Source: Candidatus Zixiibacteriota bacterium
GTDB taxonomy: Bacteria; Zixibacteria; MSB-5A5; GN15; FEB-12
Direction of reading: 5' to 3'
Assembly: GCA_034003725.1 (NCBI GenBank)
Contig: JAVEYB010000003.1
Coordinates: 237,486 to 301,485, forward strand
DNA: 64,000 nucleotides
The position numbers and the translations under genes are program-made. Every line of letters starts with the position of its first letter. The stretch's first letter is position 1. Shown here one piece after another: positions 5,505 through 18,624 of the stretch. The notes beneath the pieces are model-generated. The model had not been told where the DNA came from. It did no database searches and was given only the letters and a program-made list of their open reading frames with translations.

Positions 5505-8500
5505 ATGCAAAAGACCTTGCTCTCGAGTCTGTTTGTATTGATGGCACTCGTCGCCGCCTTGTTCTTGGCATGCGATGATGATGAGCCGCCGGTTGGATCG
5601 GGGAGCCCCCGGGCGAATGTCCGCGTGATCCACGCGAGCTTCGACGCGCCTGATGTCGACATCCGCGTCGACGGCGCCGTGGCCGTCGCCGGGCTCGGGT
5701 ATGGCGCCACTTCCGGCTATGCCCAGGTTGATCCCGGTGCGCGCAATGTCACCGTGACGCCCTCCGGCGCGACAACACCGGTCGTGCTGGATCTCGATGT
5801 GAACGTTACCGTCGACAAGTTCTACACCGTAGTGGCGCTCGACGAAATGAGTACCATTGACGCCGTCTTCCAGGAAGACCTCCGTTCCTCCAATCCCAGC
5901 AAGGCCAAGGTACGCTTCATTCACGCCGCTCCCGACGCGCCTGCTGTCGACATCAAGGTCAACAGCGGTACCGGAGCCACCGTGTTCTCGAACCGCGCCT
6001 TCAAGTCCGTTTCGGACTACATCGAAGTTGACGCCGGCGCGTATACGTTTGCCGTCACGGCCACCGGCTCGACCGCCGAAGAAGCCTTGTACAAGCCGAT
6101 CGGACTGCAAAACGGCAAGGTCTACACCATTGTCGCCCTTGGCACGCTCGACAAGACCGACGCGTACCCGTTCCGGGTTCGCGTGTTCACCGATAACGAC
6201 GATGGTGCGGCGTTCGCCGACCTGCTCGATGCCGATCTGCCGGACGCCACCGTTCGCGTTCTCCACACCAGCTACGATGGCGGGCCGGTCGACGTGCTGG
6301 TCGATGATGCCGTCGCGTTTGCTTCGCTGACCTACGGTGAAGCCGCCGCGTATTCCGTCGTAACGGCGGGAACCCGCAATATCAAAGTGACGCCCGCCGG
6401 CGTATCCTCAACCGTCCTCGTGGAAACGGACGACGAATTTCGCTCGGGCAATGAATACACGCTTGTAGCCGTGGATGAAGCCGCGGACCTCGATTTGCTC
6501 ATTGGCGGCGACAATCGGACTCCCAACCCCGACCAGGCCAAGGTGCGATTTATCCACGCGTCGCCCGATGCGCCCCGCGTCGATGTCCGTCTGAACAGCG
6601 GTTTCGGACCGAAGCAGTTCCCCAACGTGGCATTCAGGACTATCGGCGCCTATTCGTCCGTCGATGCCGGTGACTACGTGTTCGTTCTGACCATGGCCGA
6701 CTCGACGTGGGAACTGATTGCGTACGAGCCGATCGCCCTCGCGAACGGCCAGGTCTACACGCTGGTCGCTCTGGGCACGCTCGACGACGGTGACGCGTAT
6801 CCGTTCACGCTGCGGCTGTTCTCCGATAACGATGACGGTACGTCGTATACCGACCTGACCGTCGAGCCGCGCACGAAGGCCGACTTCCGCGTCATGCACC
6901 TGAGCTACGACGCGCCGGCCGTCAACGTCCTCGTCGATGGATATGCGGCGATACCGAGTCTGGCTTTCAAGGGCTCGTCGAAGTACACGGAATTGAACGC
7001 CGGGACCCGCAATATTCAGGTTCAGTCCGCCGCTGGTGGGCCATCTGTGATCGATGCCGATCTTGATTTCGTGGCCGGCGCGGAGTACACGATCTTCGCC
7101 GTCGACCGTCTGACCACGATTGCGGCGCTTTTTGAAGAAGACGACCGCGCGCCGGTCGCCGACCAGGCTAAGGTCCGGTTCGTGCATGCGGTGCATGATG
7201 CCCCGGCGGTAGACATCAAGCTCGAGACCGGTACCGGCGCCGCCGTATTCAGCAATCTTTCCTTCAAGGATATCACCGATTATCAGATAATCGACGATAC
7301 CCAGTATCGGTTCGTCGTGACCGCGGCCGGGGATACGAACGAAGTCCTCGTGTTTAACCCGGTTGCGTTGTCGCCCAACACCACGTACACCATTGTCGCG
7401 CACGGTACGTTCAGTCTTACGGACACCGTCCAGTTTGGTGTGCGCGTATACACCGACAACGGAAACGGAAACCAGTTTGTTGACCTTACGATCGCCAAAT
7501 CGCCGGTTCGACTGATCCACGCCAGCTACGACGGGCCGGTGCTCGACGTGCTCTCCGACGGCGTGCGGCAGATACAGGCCGTGCCGTACCGCGGCACCGC
7601 CGGGTATGCCCAGTTGAACGCGGGCACGCGGAACATCCAGGTCGTCCCGGCCAACCAGACCTCACCGGTGCTGATCGAAGAGACCCGGCTGCTCGACGAA
7701 GACGTGTACTACACGGCCTTTGCGTTTGACGAATTGGCGTCCATCGAAGGCGTATTTGTCGTTGATGATCGGGTCTTGAGCGGGACACAGGCCAAAGTCC
7801 GTTTTGTCCACGCAGCCCCCGATGCCGGCCCCGTTGACATCAAGGTCAATTCGGGCTCTGGCGCCGCCGTCTTCGCGGCCGCCAACTACAAGGACATTTC
7901 GTCCTACGTGAGTGTTGATCCCGGTGCATACGTCTTCGCCGTTACCGCGGCGGGCAATACCGACGAGATCGTCGTCTTCGATCCGTTCGCACTCCAGACC
8001 AACAGTCTCTACACGATCGTCGCGTTCGGCACACTTGACACGCTCGATCAATATCCGTTCGGTGTTCGAGTGTTCCGTGACAACGGCGACGGCAACATCG
8101 TGAACGACCTGACGATCAACGAGCCGTCCATTCGCGTTATCCACGCCAGTTACGACGCCCCGGCTGTCGAGGTACGCGTGGATGACGTCCTCAAGTGGGA
8201 TGATACGATCCAGTATGCAGGCACCAAAGGATACAGCGAAGTTGATCCGGGTGTCCGCAATATCAAGGTCGGCCCGGTGGGCGGTGCGGCCGTTATCGAC
8301 ATCGACCTCAACCTCGCGTTCAACACTGACTACACGATCTTTGCGATGGATCAGCTCGCGCTGATCGATCCGGTGTACGATATAGACGATCGCACGCCGA
8401 ATCCTTCGGCGCCGAAGGCCCGGTTCGTGCATGCTTCACCCGATGCCCCGGCGGTCGACGTCAAGACCGTGTCGGGAACGGGGGCGACTCTGTTCGGTAA

Positions 8501-10013
8501 CGTGTCCTTCAAGGGCATTACACCGTACCAAACCCTGTCCGCTGGCGCCACCCAGCTCGTGATAACGCCGGCCGGCAGCTCCAGCGAGGTGCGAGTGTAC
8601 CTGCCGTTCACCTTTGCCAACAATACGGTCTACACGATCATGGCGTTCGGTACGCTCGCCGACGGCGACGGGTATCCGTTCCGTGTCCGCATCTTTACGG
8701 ACAACGGCGCCGGCACAGGTAGTTCGGAACTTACCATCGCGGCCTCCAAGCTGCGCGTGATCCACGCCGGTGTCGACGGCTATCCGATTGAAACCCTCGT
8801 GGGAGACTCCATCAAGCATACGAACGTCGCGTATGAAGGAGCCGGCGGGTATCTCGACGTCGGACCCGGTAATCGTAATATCAAGGTCCGTCAGTCCGGC
8901 TTTGCCACGCCGCCGGTGATCGATACAACGGTCGAGCTCGGCTTCCGCACCGACTACACGCTGCTTGTCCTCGATTCGCTGAGCCGGATGAGCGCGGTCG
9001 TTGCTTCGGATGCCCGGGCCACGATCACTGACTCGGTCAAGCTCCGCTTCACACACGCGGTCCTCGACATGCCGGCGGTCGATATCCGGCGCGACAATCC
9101 GACCGGGACGCTCTTGTTCGGCGACTACGCCTTCGGGGAAGTATCGCCTTACCTGGTGGTGAGCAACGGGAGCTACGTCTTCTCGGTTGTTGAAGCGGGT
9201 ACGACGAACGAAGTGGCCCGGTTTGACGCCACCACACTCAACACCTCGTCGTCCTACACGCTCATAGCTCTGGGGACGGCCAATCAGGCCGACGCCAGTC
9301 CGTTCACGGTTCGCCTCTTCACGGATAACGGTCCCGGCAACCAGTCGACCGCGTTGACCGCCAAGACCGGTAAGGTCCGCGCGATTCATCTCAGTCAGGA
9401 TTCTCCTGCCGTGGACTTCACGCTCGACGGTGTCTCGCAGGCGACCAATATCGACTTCCGCACGCCGACCGCTTATGTGAACGCCACTCCGGGTACGCGC
9501 GCCCTGGCATTGCTGGAGACCGGCACGGCCAACGTCGTGGTGGATACTAGCGTCATAGCCGCGCCTGACGCGAGCTACACGCTGTGGGCCTTTGACTCAA
9601 CCGGAACGGCCGTCGCGGGAAGAATCAGCACCGACGACCGGGCGGTGGTCACCAATCCGAAGGTGCGTTTTGTCAACGCGGTCTCTGACGCGCCGGCACT
9701 TACGCTCCAGAACTTTACCTTCGGGTTCCCGCTGCCGATGAACAGCAACGTGAGCTTCAAGACGGTGTCGACGTACACGTCGACCCTCACCGCAAGTCCC
9801 ACCTTCGTATTCCAGGTGGCCGACGCCGGTACGCTCGCTGTCGTCGTGCTGTTCCAGCCGGTGAATATCACCGGCAGCACCGTCTACACCATGGTGCTGA
9901 CGGGTACACTCGACACCGGCGACGCCTATCCGCTGCAGGGTCGCCTGTACATCGATAATGGTACCGGCAGTCAGGTGGTGGACCTGGTGCCGACCGTCAA
10001 GTCGGGAGAATAG
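5505..10013 (+). CDS. giant DUF4397 tandem-repeat lipoprotein
   Basis: This 1502-aa protein begins with a lipoprotein signal peptide (lipobox ending LFLAC, then DDDEPP), so it is probably anchored in a membrane and faces the periplasm or the surface. The rest is 14 beta-rich units of about 100 residues, each opening with a VRVIHASxDAPxVDI-type motif. Two versions alternate seven times. Version A has GYxxVxPGxRNIKV and FYTVVALD. Version B has AKVRFIHAxPDAP, VYTIVALGTL and FRVRVFTDN. The period per pair is about 208 residues. These are DUF4397 repeats of unknown function; adhesion or polymer binding is only a guess. A perfect terminator follows 58 bases after the stop. Confidence 0.9.
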   Translation: MQKTLLSSLFVLMALVAALFLACDDDEPPVGSGSPRANVRVIHASFDAPDVDIRVDGAVAVAGLGYGATSGYAQVDPGARNVTVTPSGATTPVVLDLDVNVTVDKFYTVVALDEMSTIDAVFQEDLRSSNPSKAKVRFIHAAPDAPAVDIKVNSGTGATVFSNRAFKSVSDYIEVDAGAYTFAVTATGSTAEEALYKPIGLQNGKVYTIVALGTLDKTDAYPFRVRVFTDNDDGAAFADLLDADLPDATVRVLHTSYDGGPVDVLVDDAVAFASLTYGEAAAYSVVTAGTRNIKVTPAGVSSTVLVETDDEFRSGNEYTLVAVDEAADLDLLIGGDNRTPNPDQAKVRFIHASPDAPRVDVRLNSGFGPKQFPNVAFRTIGAYSSVDAGDYVFVLTMADSTWELIAYEPIALANGQVYTLVALGTLDDGDAYPFTLRLFSDNDDGTSYTDLTVEPRTKADFRVMHLSYDAPAVNVLVDGYAAIPSLAFKGSSKYTELNAGTRNIQVQSAAGGPSVIDADLDFVAGAEYTIFAVDRLTTIAALFEEDDRAPVADQAKVRFVHAVHDAPAVDIKLETGTGAAVFSNLSFKDITDYQIIDDTQYRFVVTAAGDTNEVLVFNPVALSPNTTYTIVAHGTFSLTDTVQFGVRVYTDNGNGNQFVDLTIAKSPVRLIHASYDGPVLDVLSDGVRQIQAVPYRGTAGYAQLNAGTRNIQVVPANQTSPVLIEETRLLDEDVYYTAFAFDELASIEGVFVVDDRVLSGTQAKVRFVHAAPDAGPVDIKVNSGSGAAVFAAANYKDISSYVSVDPGAYVFAVTAAGNTDEIVVFDPFALQTNSLYTIVAFGTLDTLDQYPFGVRVFRDNGDGNIVNDLTINEPSIRVIHASYDAPAVEVRVDDVLKWDDTIQYAGTKGYSEVDPGVRNIKVGPVGGAAVIDIDLNLAFNTDYTIFAMDQLALIDPVYDIDDRTPNPSAPKARFVHASPDAPAVDVKTVSGTGATLFGNVSFKGITPYQTLSAGATQLVITPAGSSSEVRVYLPFTFANNTVYTIMAFGTLADGDGYPFRVRIFTDNGAGTGSSELTIAASKLRVIHAGVDGYPIETLVGDSIKHTNVAYEGAGGYLDVGPGNRNIKVRQSGFATPPVIDTTVELGFRTDYTLLVLDSLSRMSAVVASDARATITDSVKLRFTHAVLDMPAVDIRRDNPTGTLLFGDYAFGEVSPYLVVSNGSYVFSVVEAGTTNEVARFDATTLNTSSSYTLIALGTANQADASPFTVRLFTDNGPGNQSTALTAKTGKVRAIHLSQDSPAVDFTLDGVSQATNIDFRTPTAYVNATPGTRALALLETGTANVVVDTSVIAAPDASYTLWAFDSTGTAVAGRISTDDRAVVTNPKVRFVNAVSDAPALTLQNFTFGFPLPMNSNVSFKTVSTYTSTLTASPTFVFQVADAGTLAVVVLFQPVNITGSTVYTMVLTGTLDTGDAYPLQGRLYIDNGTGSQVVDLVPTVKSGE

Positions 10014-16915: not shown

Positions 16916-17144
16916 TCGGACCAATCTCCCTTGATCGTTCTACGTACAACTCTTTCAGGCGCCCGCATGGTTCCTTATCTCCGGTCCGTCGACTTATCGG
17001 GGCGTCGGATCGAATCTCCCTTGACGTTTTTTCCGATGGCCCGTAGCCTTGCGGACGTGTATAATGTCAATCTGACGGGTCGTGTCCGTCAACATAACAC
17101 TGACGACGACAAATGTCTTTTTGACACAGCAGAAAGGGAAATTC

Positions 17145-17849
17145 TTGAGAACCGCCCACGCACTCATACTCGCGCTCGGCGCCGTTGTGGCGGCCGCCGT
17201 ATTCGGCATGTACTTTCATGACGCCCGTTCGCCGCAGCACGATATCGCCGTCACCGGCTATGCCACGATGAGTTTCGAGGCTGATATCGTCAAATGGCGC
17301 GTCACCCTCCAGCGGTCGACCGGCCTGACTGACCTGGTCGACGGCTACCGGAAGATCCAGGGCGACGTCGAGTTGTTCAAACGCCTTCTCATCGATCAGG
17401 GGCTCGCCGAGGAGGATATCTCGGTCCAGCCGATCAACACCTATCAGAATTACGGCCGTGAAGGGCAGGTGACGGGCAACACCATTCAACAGGCGTTGTT
17501 TGTCATATCGTCGAATATCGACGCCATTGAAACCTTGGCTCTCGACCCGTCAAAACTGATCGAGAGCGGCGTAACCGTCCAATCGTCGCAACTGGAGTTC
17601 TTCTCCTCGAAACTGGCCGACATCAAACAGCAGCTGCTCGCCGAAGCGACCAGAGACGCACAGAAGCGGGCTCAGGAAATCGTGACCAGCGCCGGCCGAA
17701 CCCTCGGTAAGGTCATTAGCCTGCGCTCGGGCGTCTTCCAGATAACGGAGCCGTATTCCACTGAAGTGTCCGGCTATGGTATGTACAATACGCAGACCAG
17801 GCAGAAGGACATCACGGTTACCGTGCGAGCGTCGTTCCTGATCGACTGA
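17145..17849 (+). CDS. SIMPL-domain (DUF541) anchored periplasmic protein
   Basis: TTG at 17145 is preferred, with AGAAAGGG six bases upstream, and gives 234 aa. The GTG at 17082 would add 21 residues with no ribosome-binding site. One N-terminal hydrophobic segment anchors a SIMPL domain: DIAVTGYATMSFEAD, VQPINTYQNYG, then LAEATRDAQKRAQEI and GRTLGKVISL. These features are typical of the YggE family. YggE-type proteins oligomerise in the periplasm, and their function is poorly defined. No co-transcribed gene follows. Confidence 0.85.
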   Translation: MRTAHALILALGAVVAAAVFGMYFHDARSPQHDIAVTGYATMSFEADIVKWRVTLQRSTGLTDLVDGYRKIQGDVELFKRLLIDQGLAEEDISVQPINTYQNYGREGQVTGNTIQQALFVISSNIDAIETLALDPSKLIESGVTVQSSQLEFFSSKLADIKQQLLAEATRDAQKRAQEIVTSAGRTLGKVISLRSGVFQITEPYSTEVSGYGMYNTQTRQKDITVTVRASFLID

Positions 17850-17865: not shown

Positions 17866-17902
17866 AAAACTAAACCGGACGGCCTCTGAAAGACCGTCCG
17901 GT
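17866..17902 (-). terminator. terminator of the minus-strand RNA unit
   Basis: On the minus strand ACCGGACGGTCT (17902-17891) pairs with AGGCCGTCCGGT (17885-17874) through a 5-base loop, giving 12 pairs including one G-U. TTAGTTTTT follows. On the plus strand the same position is a C-A mismatch and there is no U-run, so it is unlikely to serve the SIMPL gene. Confidence 0.72.
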
Positions 17903-17912
17903 CGGTTAAACT

Positions 17913-17963
17913 GTTGGGATTTACTTAGAGTGTCCCAACCAAAGGCGGGACCGCTTCTAAGTA
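17913..17963 (-). repeat. two interleaved perfect inverted repeats
   Basis: In minus-strand order the segments are TACTTAGA (17963-17956), GTTGGGA (17939-17933), TCTAAGTA (17929-17922) and TCCCAAC (17919-17913). The first pairs with the third (8 bp) and the second with the fourth (7 bp). The two helices interlock, so the RNA can form a pseudoknot-like fold or switch between two hairpins. The loop links are 16, 3 and 2 nt. Two nucleotides seem too short to cross a full 8-bp helix, so alternative hairpins are the more likely reading. Confidence 0.75.
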
Positions 17964-17995
17964 GCAGCCACCTCGGTAAAGTCTGTTTTTATAAT
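17957..17995 (-). CDS. possible 12-codon peptide with ATT start
   Basis: Seven bases after the perfect GGAGG core (18007-18003) lies ATT at 17995, opening a 12-codon frame that would read (M/I)IKTDFTEVAAT before TAG. No ATG, GTG or TTG is available at a usable distance in this frame except the internal GTG at codon 9. ATT starts are rare and known from infC. The frame may instead be a ribosome-binding decoy within a regulatory RNA. The strength of the Shine-Dalgarno is the main argument for translation. Confidence 0.3.
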   Translation of the reverse strand: MIKTDFTEVAAT

Positions 17996-18024
17996 AGGAC
18001 CACCTCCTTTCCACCGTACTTCCA

Positions 18025-18053
18025 ATAACAGAAAACCGGGCCGTTTTGTGCAA
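18025..18053 (-). promoter_or_regulatory. promoter of the minus-strand RNA unit
   Basis: On the minus strand TTGCAC (18053-18048) and TGTTAT (18030-18025) are separated by exactly 17 bases, fitting a housekeeping sigma promoter. Transcription would begin near 18018, about 10 nt before the Shine-Dalgarno sequence. Confidence 0.5.
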
Positions 18054-18177
18054 CATAAAAATCAGAAAATGTCAGGTTGGGACACCCGTTCCAGCGTCGA
18101 ACGGGTACCAAATTCAGCGATCTCCCTATGCACCGCAGCCATTGCGTTCGGCACGCTGTAAGATGTAGCTTCCCTGT

Positions 18178-18624
18178 ATGGTTGCCATTCGAATCGTCCT
18201 GCGCGATCCCAAAGCCGTCGCCTGGCTGGTCCTGCTGACCGCCATATCCCTGCACGTTATCGACGAAGCCTTGACGAACTTCCTGTCTGAGTTCAACGCG
18301 CTGGTACCGCTCGCCAGGTCACTGACCGGGGTTGCCGCCATCCCGCACCTGTCCGGGGAAATCTGGCTGGGCGGGGTGCTGATCCTTCTCGTGGCCGGCC
18401 TGGCGCTCACTCCGATTGTCCATCGCGGTCACCTGCCGATTCGTGTGGTTGCGACCGCACTCGGCGTTCTGATGATTCTGAATGCCTGTGTGCATATTGC
18501 ATGGTCAGTGGCTTCGGGGAGTCTGATGCCCGGTGCGACAACGTCACCGATCCTCGGGGCGGCGGGCGCCTTTATGGCCGTCCGCGGGTTAAACGGCCGC
18601 TATTGGCGACACGGTTCCACGTGA
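18178..18624 (+). CDS. small integral membrane protein, HXXEE-like
   Basis: The 148-aa protein has four predicted membrane segments (about residues 13-30, 60-85, 90-115 and 120-140). The first contains LHVIDEALTNF and a later one NACVHIAWS. This resembles the HXXEE family, small membrane proteins of unknown function named for a His-x-x-Glu/Asp-Glu motif. There is no clear ribosome-binding site before the ATG, so the exact start is unsure. It stands alone between the RNA unit and the convergent DUF1573 gene. Confidence 0.55.
   Translation: MVAIRIVLRDPKAVAWLVLLTAISLHVIDEALTNFLSEFNALVPLARSLTGVAAIPHLSGEIWLGGVLILLVAGLALTPIVHRGHLPIRVVATALGVLMILNACVHIAWSVASGSLMPGATTSPILGAAGAFMAVRGLNGRYWRHGST

Follow-up and report, generated by a model that had tools for sequence, protein, structure and literature searches.

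A conserved and apparently translated structured RNA of Zixibacteria related to the actinobacterial sRNA Ms_IGR-5

The window, which is the whole stretch of 64,000 nucleotides of Candidatus Zixiibacteriota DNA analyzed here, very probably contains a gene for a conserved, translated and structured RNA that is related to Ms_IGR-5. Homologs of this element are found well beyond its own phylum, and a little-studied actinobacterial sRNA thereby joins a family represented in at least four phyla. Our preferred reading, which we regard as moderately probable, is that the element is a gene in its own right and encodes a structured RNA of about 150 nt, which is homologous to Ms_IGR-5, carries a translated mini-ORF of about 10-13 codons and serves as a translation-gated regulator. 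The anatomy of the element is well supported, and the regulatory role is one that we infer.

Organization of the element

The original prediction described a self-contained minus-strand unit in a gene-free gap, consisting of a promoter with 17-base spacing, a strong ribosome-binding site, a 12-codon frame opening at ATT and a strand-specific terminator. Each of these parts held up on closer analysis, and together with the conserved helices they are arranged as follows.

18025..18053, minus strand: promoter, with the -35 box TTGCAC at 18048-18053, a 17-base spacer and the -10 box TGTTAT at 18025-18030 (from sequence)
17866..18019, minus strand: predicted transcript of about 150 nt that starts close to GTAC (18016-18019) and ends in the T-run of the terminator (from promoter spacing, terminator and conserved span)
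18010..18016, minus strand: 5' strand of helix P0, with a CGG core at 18014-18016 (from covariation)
17997..18012, minus strand: extended Shine-Dalgarno sequence GGAAAGGAGGTGGTCC, complementary to the 16S 3' end
17957..17995, minus strand: mini-ORF with ATT start, IIKTDFTEVAAT and TAG stop (from conserved frame, start and stop position)
17974..17976, minus strand: 3' strand of helix P0, CCG, just before and into the GAG codon
17965..17972, minus strand: 5' strand of helix P1, GGTGGCTG, within the mini-ORF
17956..17962, minus strand: 5' strand of helix P2, ACTTAGA, spanning the stop codon and the last codon before it
17933..17939, minus strand: alternative-fold strand GTTGGGA, able to pair with TCCCAAC at 17913-17919; not supported by covariation
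17923..17929, minus strand: 3' strand of helix P2, TCTAAGT
17914..17922, minus strand: conserved linker AAATCCCAA between P2 and P1, a candidate target-pairing or switch segment
17904..17913, minus strand: 3' strand of helix P1, CAGT..ACC
17866..17903, minus strand: intrinsic terminator, with a 14-pair stem at 17873-17903 and a T-rich tail at 17866-17872

The promoter, TTGCAC-17-TGTTAT, is weak, and a strict consensus scan returned 0 promoters for the element. A TTG-type -35 box with an AT-rich -10 box lies at a similar place upstream of all 29 Zixibacteria homologs examined, and the best-fitting spacing is 19 in 10 of them. The 16S rRNA of the same genome ends in ...GGATCACCTCCTTTCT (read in L218), and it pairs over about 15 bases with the Shine-Dalgarno sequence. 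In a duplex scan of both strands, this site ranked first in the 64-kb window, at -29.2 kcal/mol vs. -20.1 kcal/mol for the next. The terminator was called on the minus strand only by a terminator scan, and its stem contains compensatory changes in an RNAalifold analysis of the Zixibacteria alignment. The gap around the element is otherwise without conserved genes. It is bounded by a convergent plus-strand gene at 17082-17849, which we take from its translation to encode a SIMPL-type protein, and by a plus-strand frame that begins at 18178.

Within the element, GTGTCCCAACC (17930-17940) recurs inverted as GGTTGGGACAC at 18075-18085, just upstream of the promoter. By eye, the upstream copy is absent from the nearest relative, L009, and the recurrence may be due to chance.

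Distribution and genomic context

Lack of conservation in related genomes had been named as grounds for dismissing the unit, but plain blastn with a 165-base query matched the element in 40 of 80 genomes from its order, the nearest relative with an E-value of 3e-38. The covariance-model search that had been proposed for related genomes found matches in 47 of 132 Zixibacteria genomes, as well as in 45 of 119 Actinobacteriota, 17 of 119 Acidobacteriota and 5 of 100 Spirochaetota genomes, with one match in each. The E-values from this model, which was built from 33 sequences, are rough, and the true genome counts may be higher because the strict filters used in large searches drop weak matches. 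A genome-wide scan with the pattern GGAGGTGRTC-N12..42-GTGAGGTGRCTG found at least 120 loci. Among the matches listed, most were from Actinobacteria (Mycobacterium, Streptomyces, Nocardia, Frankia, Micromonospora and others), and Acidobacteria, one spirochaete and Zixibacteria were also represented. Based on these sequence matches, the family reaches at least four bacterial phyla. It is this conservation, more than the promoter, ribosome-binding site and terminator matches in a single sequence, that sets the element apart from chance. The distribution is patchy, with about one third of the genomes in two phyla and fewer in the others, which suggests that many lineages can do without the function.

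The genome of the window contains no further copies, its six other matches being 15-20 bases long with E-values of 0.2 or worse. A phage origin was also considered, and two patterns found no match among viral contigs.

Except among close relatives, the flanking genes vary between genomes in both identity and strand, which indicates that the element is an independent unit. When the neighborhoods of homologs were compared, no neighbor gene or gene order was common across groups. Neighbors do recur within some actinobacterial groups, in at most 32 of the 120 loci listed. This context bears on whether the element is instead a cis-acting attenuator or leader of a downstream gene. As with leader-peptide attenuators, it combines a strong ribosome-binding site, a short frame encoding a possible leader peptide, mutually exclusive hairpins and a terminator. 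Unlike them, it stands alone without a regulated gene downstream: the gene that follows is convergent, no co-directional downstream gene is conserved and the terminator is distinct from P1 and P2. Cis-acting attenuation thus seems extremely doubtful.

A conserved reading frame

In the window, the mini-ORF consists of the 12 codons ATT ATA AAA ACA GAC TTT ACC GAG GTG GCT GCT ACT followed by TAG (17995 to 17957). Its conservation was examined in 149 loci found by pattern, 29 from the order and 120 listed genome-wide out of a total of at least 120 there, with a few contigs shared between the two sets. Although the pattern specified neither start nor stop, a stop codon lies at the same position, five codons past GAG, in all 149 loci listed (TAG in 124, TAA in 14 and TGA in 11). 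Similarly, at a distance of 7-14 nt from GGAGG, 144 of the 149 have ATG, GTG or TTG in frame, compared with 6 and 0 in the other two frames. The five exceptions are all from Zixibacteria and include the window; each has an in-frame ATT at 7 nt. Because all five share this codon at the homologous place, the ATT in the window sits where other members have real start codons. In 90 hits of the covariance model, the start was TTG in 40, ATG in 27, GTG in 11 and ATT in 6, and the remaining 6 have CTG, ATC or ACG in frame at that place by eye.

Since the loci are related, these counts do not represent independent events, and the telling signs of a real frame are the switching identity of the stop codon and the three-base steps in length. 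Judged from these comparisons, the reading frame is real, and the ribosome-binding site, weak start codon, frame and stop position are maintained by selection. The ribosome footprints published for Ms_IGR-5 homologs in Mycobacterium abscessus and M. smegmatis agree with a translated frame (PMC4974804). A family filed as non-coding therefore has a conserved frame, one that gene finders miss owing to its length and start codons.

The weak start codons, together with the extreme complementarity to the anti-Shine-Dalgarno sequence, which is common to the homologs and leads the window by 9 kcal/mol, could also indicate a ribosome decoy. Such an RNA would sequester 30S subunits through 15-18 bases of 16S complementarity, and the ORF would just hold the ribosome. 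This explanation is unlikely. It does not explain why the stop position is fixed, why the frame is kept or why P1 and P2 covary downstream, and an RNA encoded by a single copy would have to be very abundant.

Covarying helices around the frame

Three helices are interwoven with the frame. The ribosome-binding site and start lie within P0, the last codons pair with the downstream CAGU..ACC to form P1, and the stop is part of P2. All three were recovered unprompted by RNAalifold from the Zixibacteria alignment. Specifically, P0 is formed in most members by a 5' ACAC and a GUGU just before GAG, and in the window and its nearest relative by CGG:CCG. P1 pairs GGUGRCUG with CAGU..ACC, and P2 pairs the last codon and stop with ..CUAAGU. 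In a mixed alignment made with MAFFT only, the covariation score was 0.346 vs. at most 0.096 for slid partners. For the 90 hits aligned to the model, an alignment that is biased towards the structure, it was 0.444 vs. at most 0.071 for slid partners, with 0 of 500 shuffles reaching it. Additionally, the 5' strand of P1 is unusual in 16 loci, and 13 of these possess the matching partner vs. 20% expected from ordinary tails. The compensatory pairs in P1 include CCTG:CAGG, ACCG:CGGT, ACGA:TCGT, GCAG:CTGC and GCTA:TAGC. The covariation is strong, and on this comparative evidence three helices around the translated frame are conserved, one of which contains the stop codon.

The linker AAATCCCAA is invariant or nearly so in Zixibacteria, and AATCCCAAC is also present in Acidobacteria and AATCCCATC in a spirochaete. 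The minimum-energy fold of the window copy is not P1 and P2 together but the alternative GTTGGGA:TCCCAAC, with a gap of 1.2 kcal/mol. The corresponding GUUGGG:CCCAAC pairing is possible in Zixibacteria, without covariation to support it. In the acidobacterial loci L074, L043, L185 and L186, the P2 arm contains a conserved GTTxGGAT that might pair with AATCCxAAC, and like GTTGGG:CCCAAC in Zixibacteria this may represent a pseudoknot or switch. Separately, the terminator loop of L178, L179, L180 and L182, which are spirochaete and acidobacterial loci, contains a recurring CUGGUCA-like segment (for example GAACTGGTCACTCAAGG and GGACTGGTCATCCGAGG), possibly a further conserved motif.

The conserved unpaired AAUCCCAACAG segment would also suit a simple antisense sRNA that acts in trans and for which the ORF is of little functional importance, as would the independence of the unit, its own terminator and the classification of its Rfam relative as an sRNA. 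The conservation of start and stop in frame is left unexplained by this reading, and we consider it very improbable.

Conservation of the RNA or of the peptide

Alternatively, the RNA could be merely the short mRNA of a functional micropeptide of the REVAAT or REVAVR type. In favor of this, the frame, start and stop are kept in the 149 loci listed, the C-terminal EV(A/T) is common to members from Zixibacteria through Mycobacterium, and the preceding Thr codons vary synonymously in Actinobacteria (ACT, ACA and ACG). In contrast, the codons GAG and GTG show no synonymous change among the 149 loci listed, in 120 of which GAGGTG was fixed by the scan pattern itself. The codons around them change amino acid as P1 and P2 require, from A to T, D, P or V and from T to R, S or G. 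Moreover, the deep relatives L216 and L211 have the GAGGTG core in another frame, with MHSTSGGGSS-like peptides that end at the same place in P2, and the N-termini of the peptides are not conserved. Because the last codons change with their helix and the frame differs in L216 and L211, the conserved property is not the peptide sequence, and a functional micropeptide is quite unlikely. Instead, translation up to the stop inside P2 is conserved, and the peptide sequence, in the deep branches, is not. A tiny frame that is kept open with non-standard starts while its peptide drifts suggests that the signal is translation itself. The unit had been proposed as a new small-peptide or regulatory RNA type. 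The small-peptide part of this is unlikely as worded, and the regulatory RNA part is what we infer.

Relation to Ms_IGR-5 and other RNAs

At curated cut-offs, Rfam gave no match at the element, and the layout had been thought to belong to no known family. At a permissive threshold, however, RF02471 (Ms_IGR-5, "Actinobacteria sRNA") was the only good match, and the element is homologous to it. The match to the window copy is full length, with 32.1 bits and an E-value of 6.5e-6, and thus falls below the RF02471 gathering score of 45 bits. Among 118 genomes of the phylum, 22 have a copy above this cut-off, the best at 63.1 bits. The alignment runs end to end over model positions 1-184, and the 5' ACACA-GGAGGUGGUC, GAGGUGGCUG and AAUnCCC-CAGU blocks are all present. 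The two share the 5' ACACA..GGAGGUGGUC, the GUGAGGUGGCUG core, the AAUnCCCnnCAGU..ACC segment and the 3' terminator; they differ in phylum and in the sub-cut-off score of the window copy. In the RF02471 consensus, GCUGCC is the partner of the ribosome-binding site, whereas in the present model P1 covaries instead. Although 94.9% of cells are able to pair in the helix drawn by Rfam, it contains no compensatory change.

RNA-seq supports the Ms_IGR-5 RNA in Streptomyces lividans (PMC8079986) and S. avermitilis (PMC8780764), and the RNA has been detected in M. smegmatis (PMC10454040). RF02471 is described as an sRNA, and the frame is absent from the Rfam family description. Previously, only the actinobacterial members had been noticed, as an sRNA of unknown function. 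In the open PMC papers searched, we found no description of the wider spread of the family, its frame, the revised structure or the stop-in-helix layout.

Other known RNAs are less similar. The Caulobacter sRNA CC2171 (RF01867) was rejected as a relative, with 20 bits vs. a cut-off of 75. The likeness is confined to the anti-Shine-Dalgarno stretch and the terminator, with no GAGGUG..CAGU pairing. Both are short RNAs with an extended GAAAGGAGGUGAUCC at the opening and a terminator at the end, and CC2171 may have a similar design without being related. The RF01867 consensus, from an alphaproteobacterial sRNA, also opens with a full-length anti-Shine-Dalgarno complement, GAAAGGAGGUGAUCCAG; its match here lies at 17876-18019 on the minus strand. 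The second CC2171-like match in the same genome is antisense to the 16S 3' end. The sX11 RNA (RF02230) was likewise set aside, with 25.9 bits in L017 vs. a cut-off of 70, mostly from the terminator, and no match in the genome of the window. Dual-function sRNAs with small ORFs resemble the element in being small, structured RNAs that contain a short frame that is translated. A survey of them considered AUG starts only (PMC5521070). In the present family, by contrast, the start is mostly non-AUG and the stop and last codons are paired in conserved helices.

A possible mechanism

Translation-gated regulation, taken by itself, has about an even chance of being correct. In this model, ribosomes would load through the very strong Shine-Dalgarno sequence in the P0 loop, with the long anti-Shine-Dalgarno pairing favoring loading, and initiation would be poor at the mostly non-AUG start. 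A ribosome that initiates would pass P0 and, at the stop codon, cover P1 and the base of P2, so that P0, P1 and P2 are opened. This opening could expose the conserved AAUCCCAACAGUnACC segment, freeing AAAUCCCAACAGUnACC, or shift the RNA to the alternative fold. In this way the RNA would serve as a readout of how initiation or termination of translation is proceeding and would exert its effect in trans, with the act of translation rather than the peptide being what matters. Action in trans is most likely given that the element has its own terminator and shares no downstream gene, which is negative evidence.

More tentatively, the family may form a class of independent RNA switches, gated by translation, in at least four phyla. 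Its members would combine a 12-codon frame with a weak start (TTG, ATT or CTG) and a full-length anti-Shine-Dalgarno complement, so that the ribosome remodels the helices holding the codons and stop of the frame. They would sense the status of the ribosome or of initiation or termination factors and regulate in trans. The element offers a compact, testable system in the easily grown M. smegmatis or in Streptomyces.

Elsewhere in the window, the plus strand at 5505-10013 encodes a predicted protein of 1502 amino acids with many similar repeats and a lipoprotein-like N-terminus.
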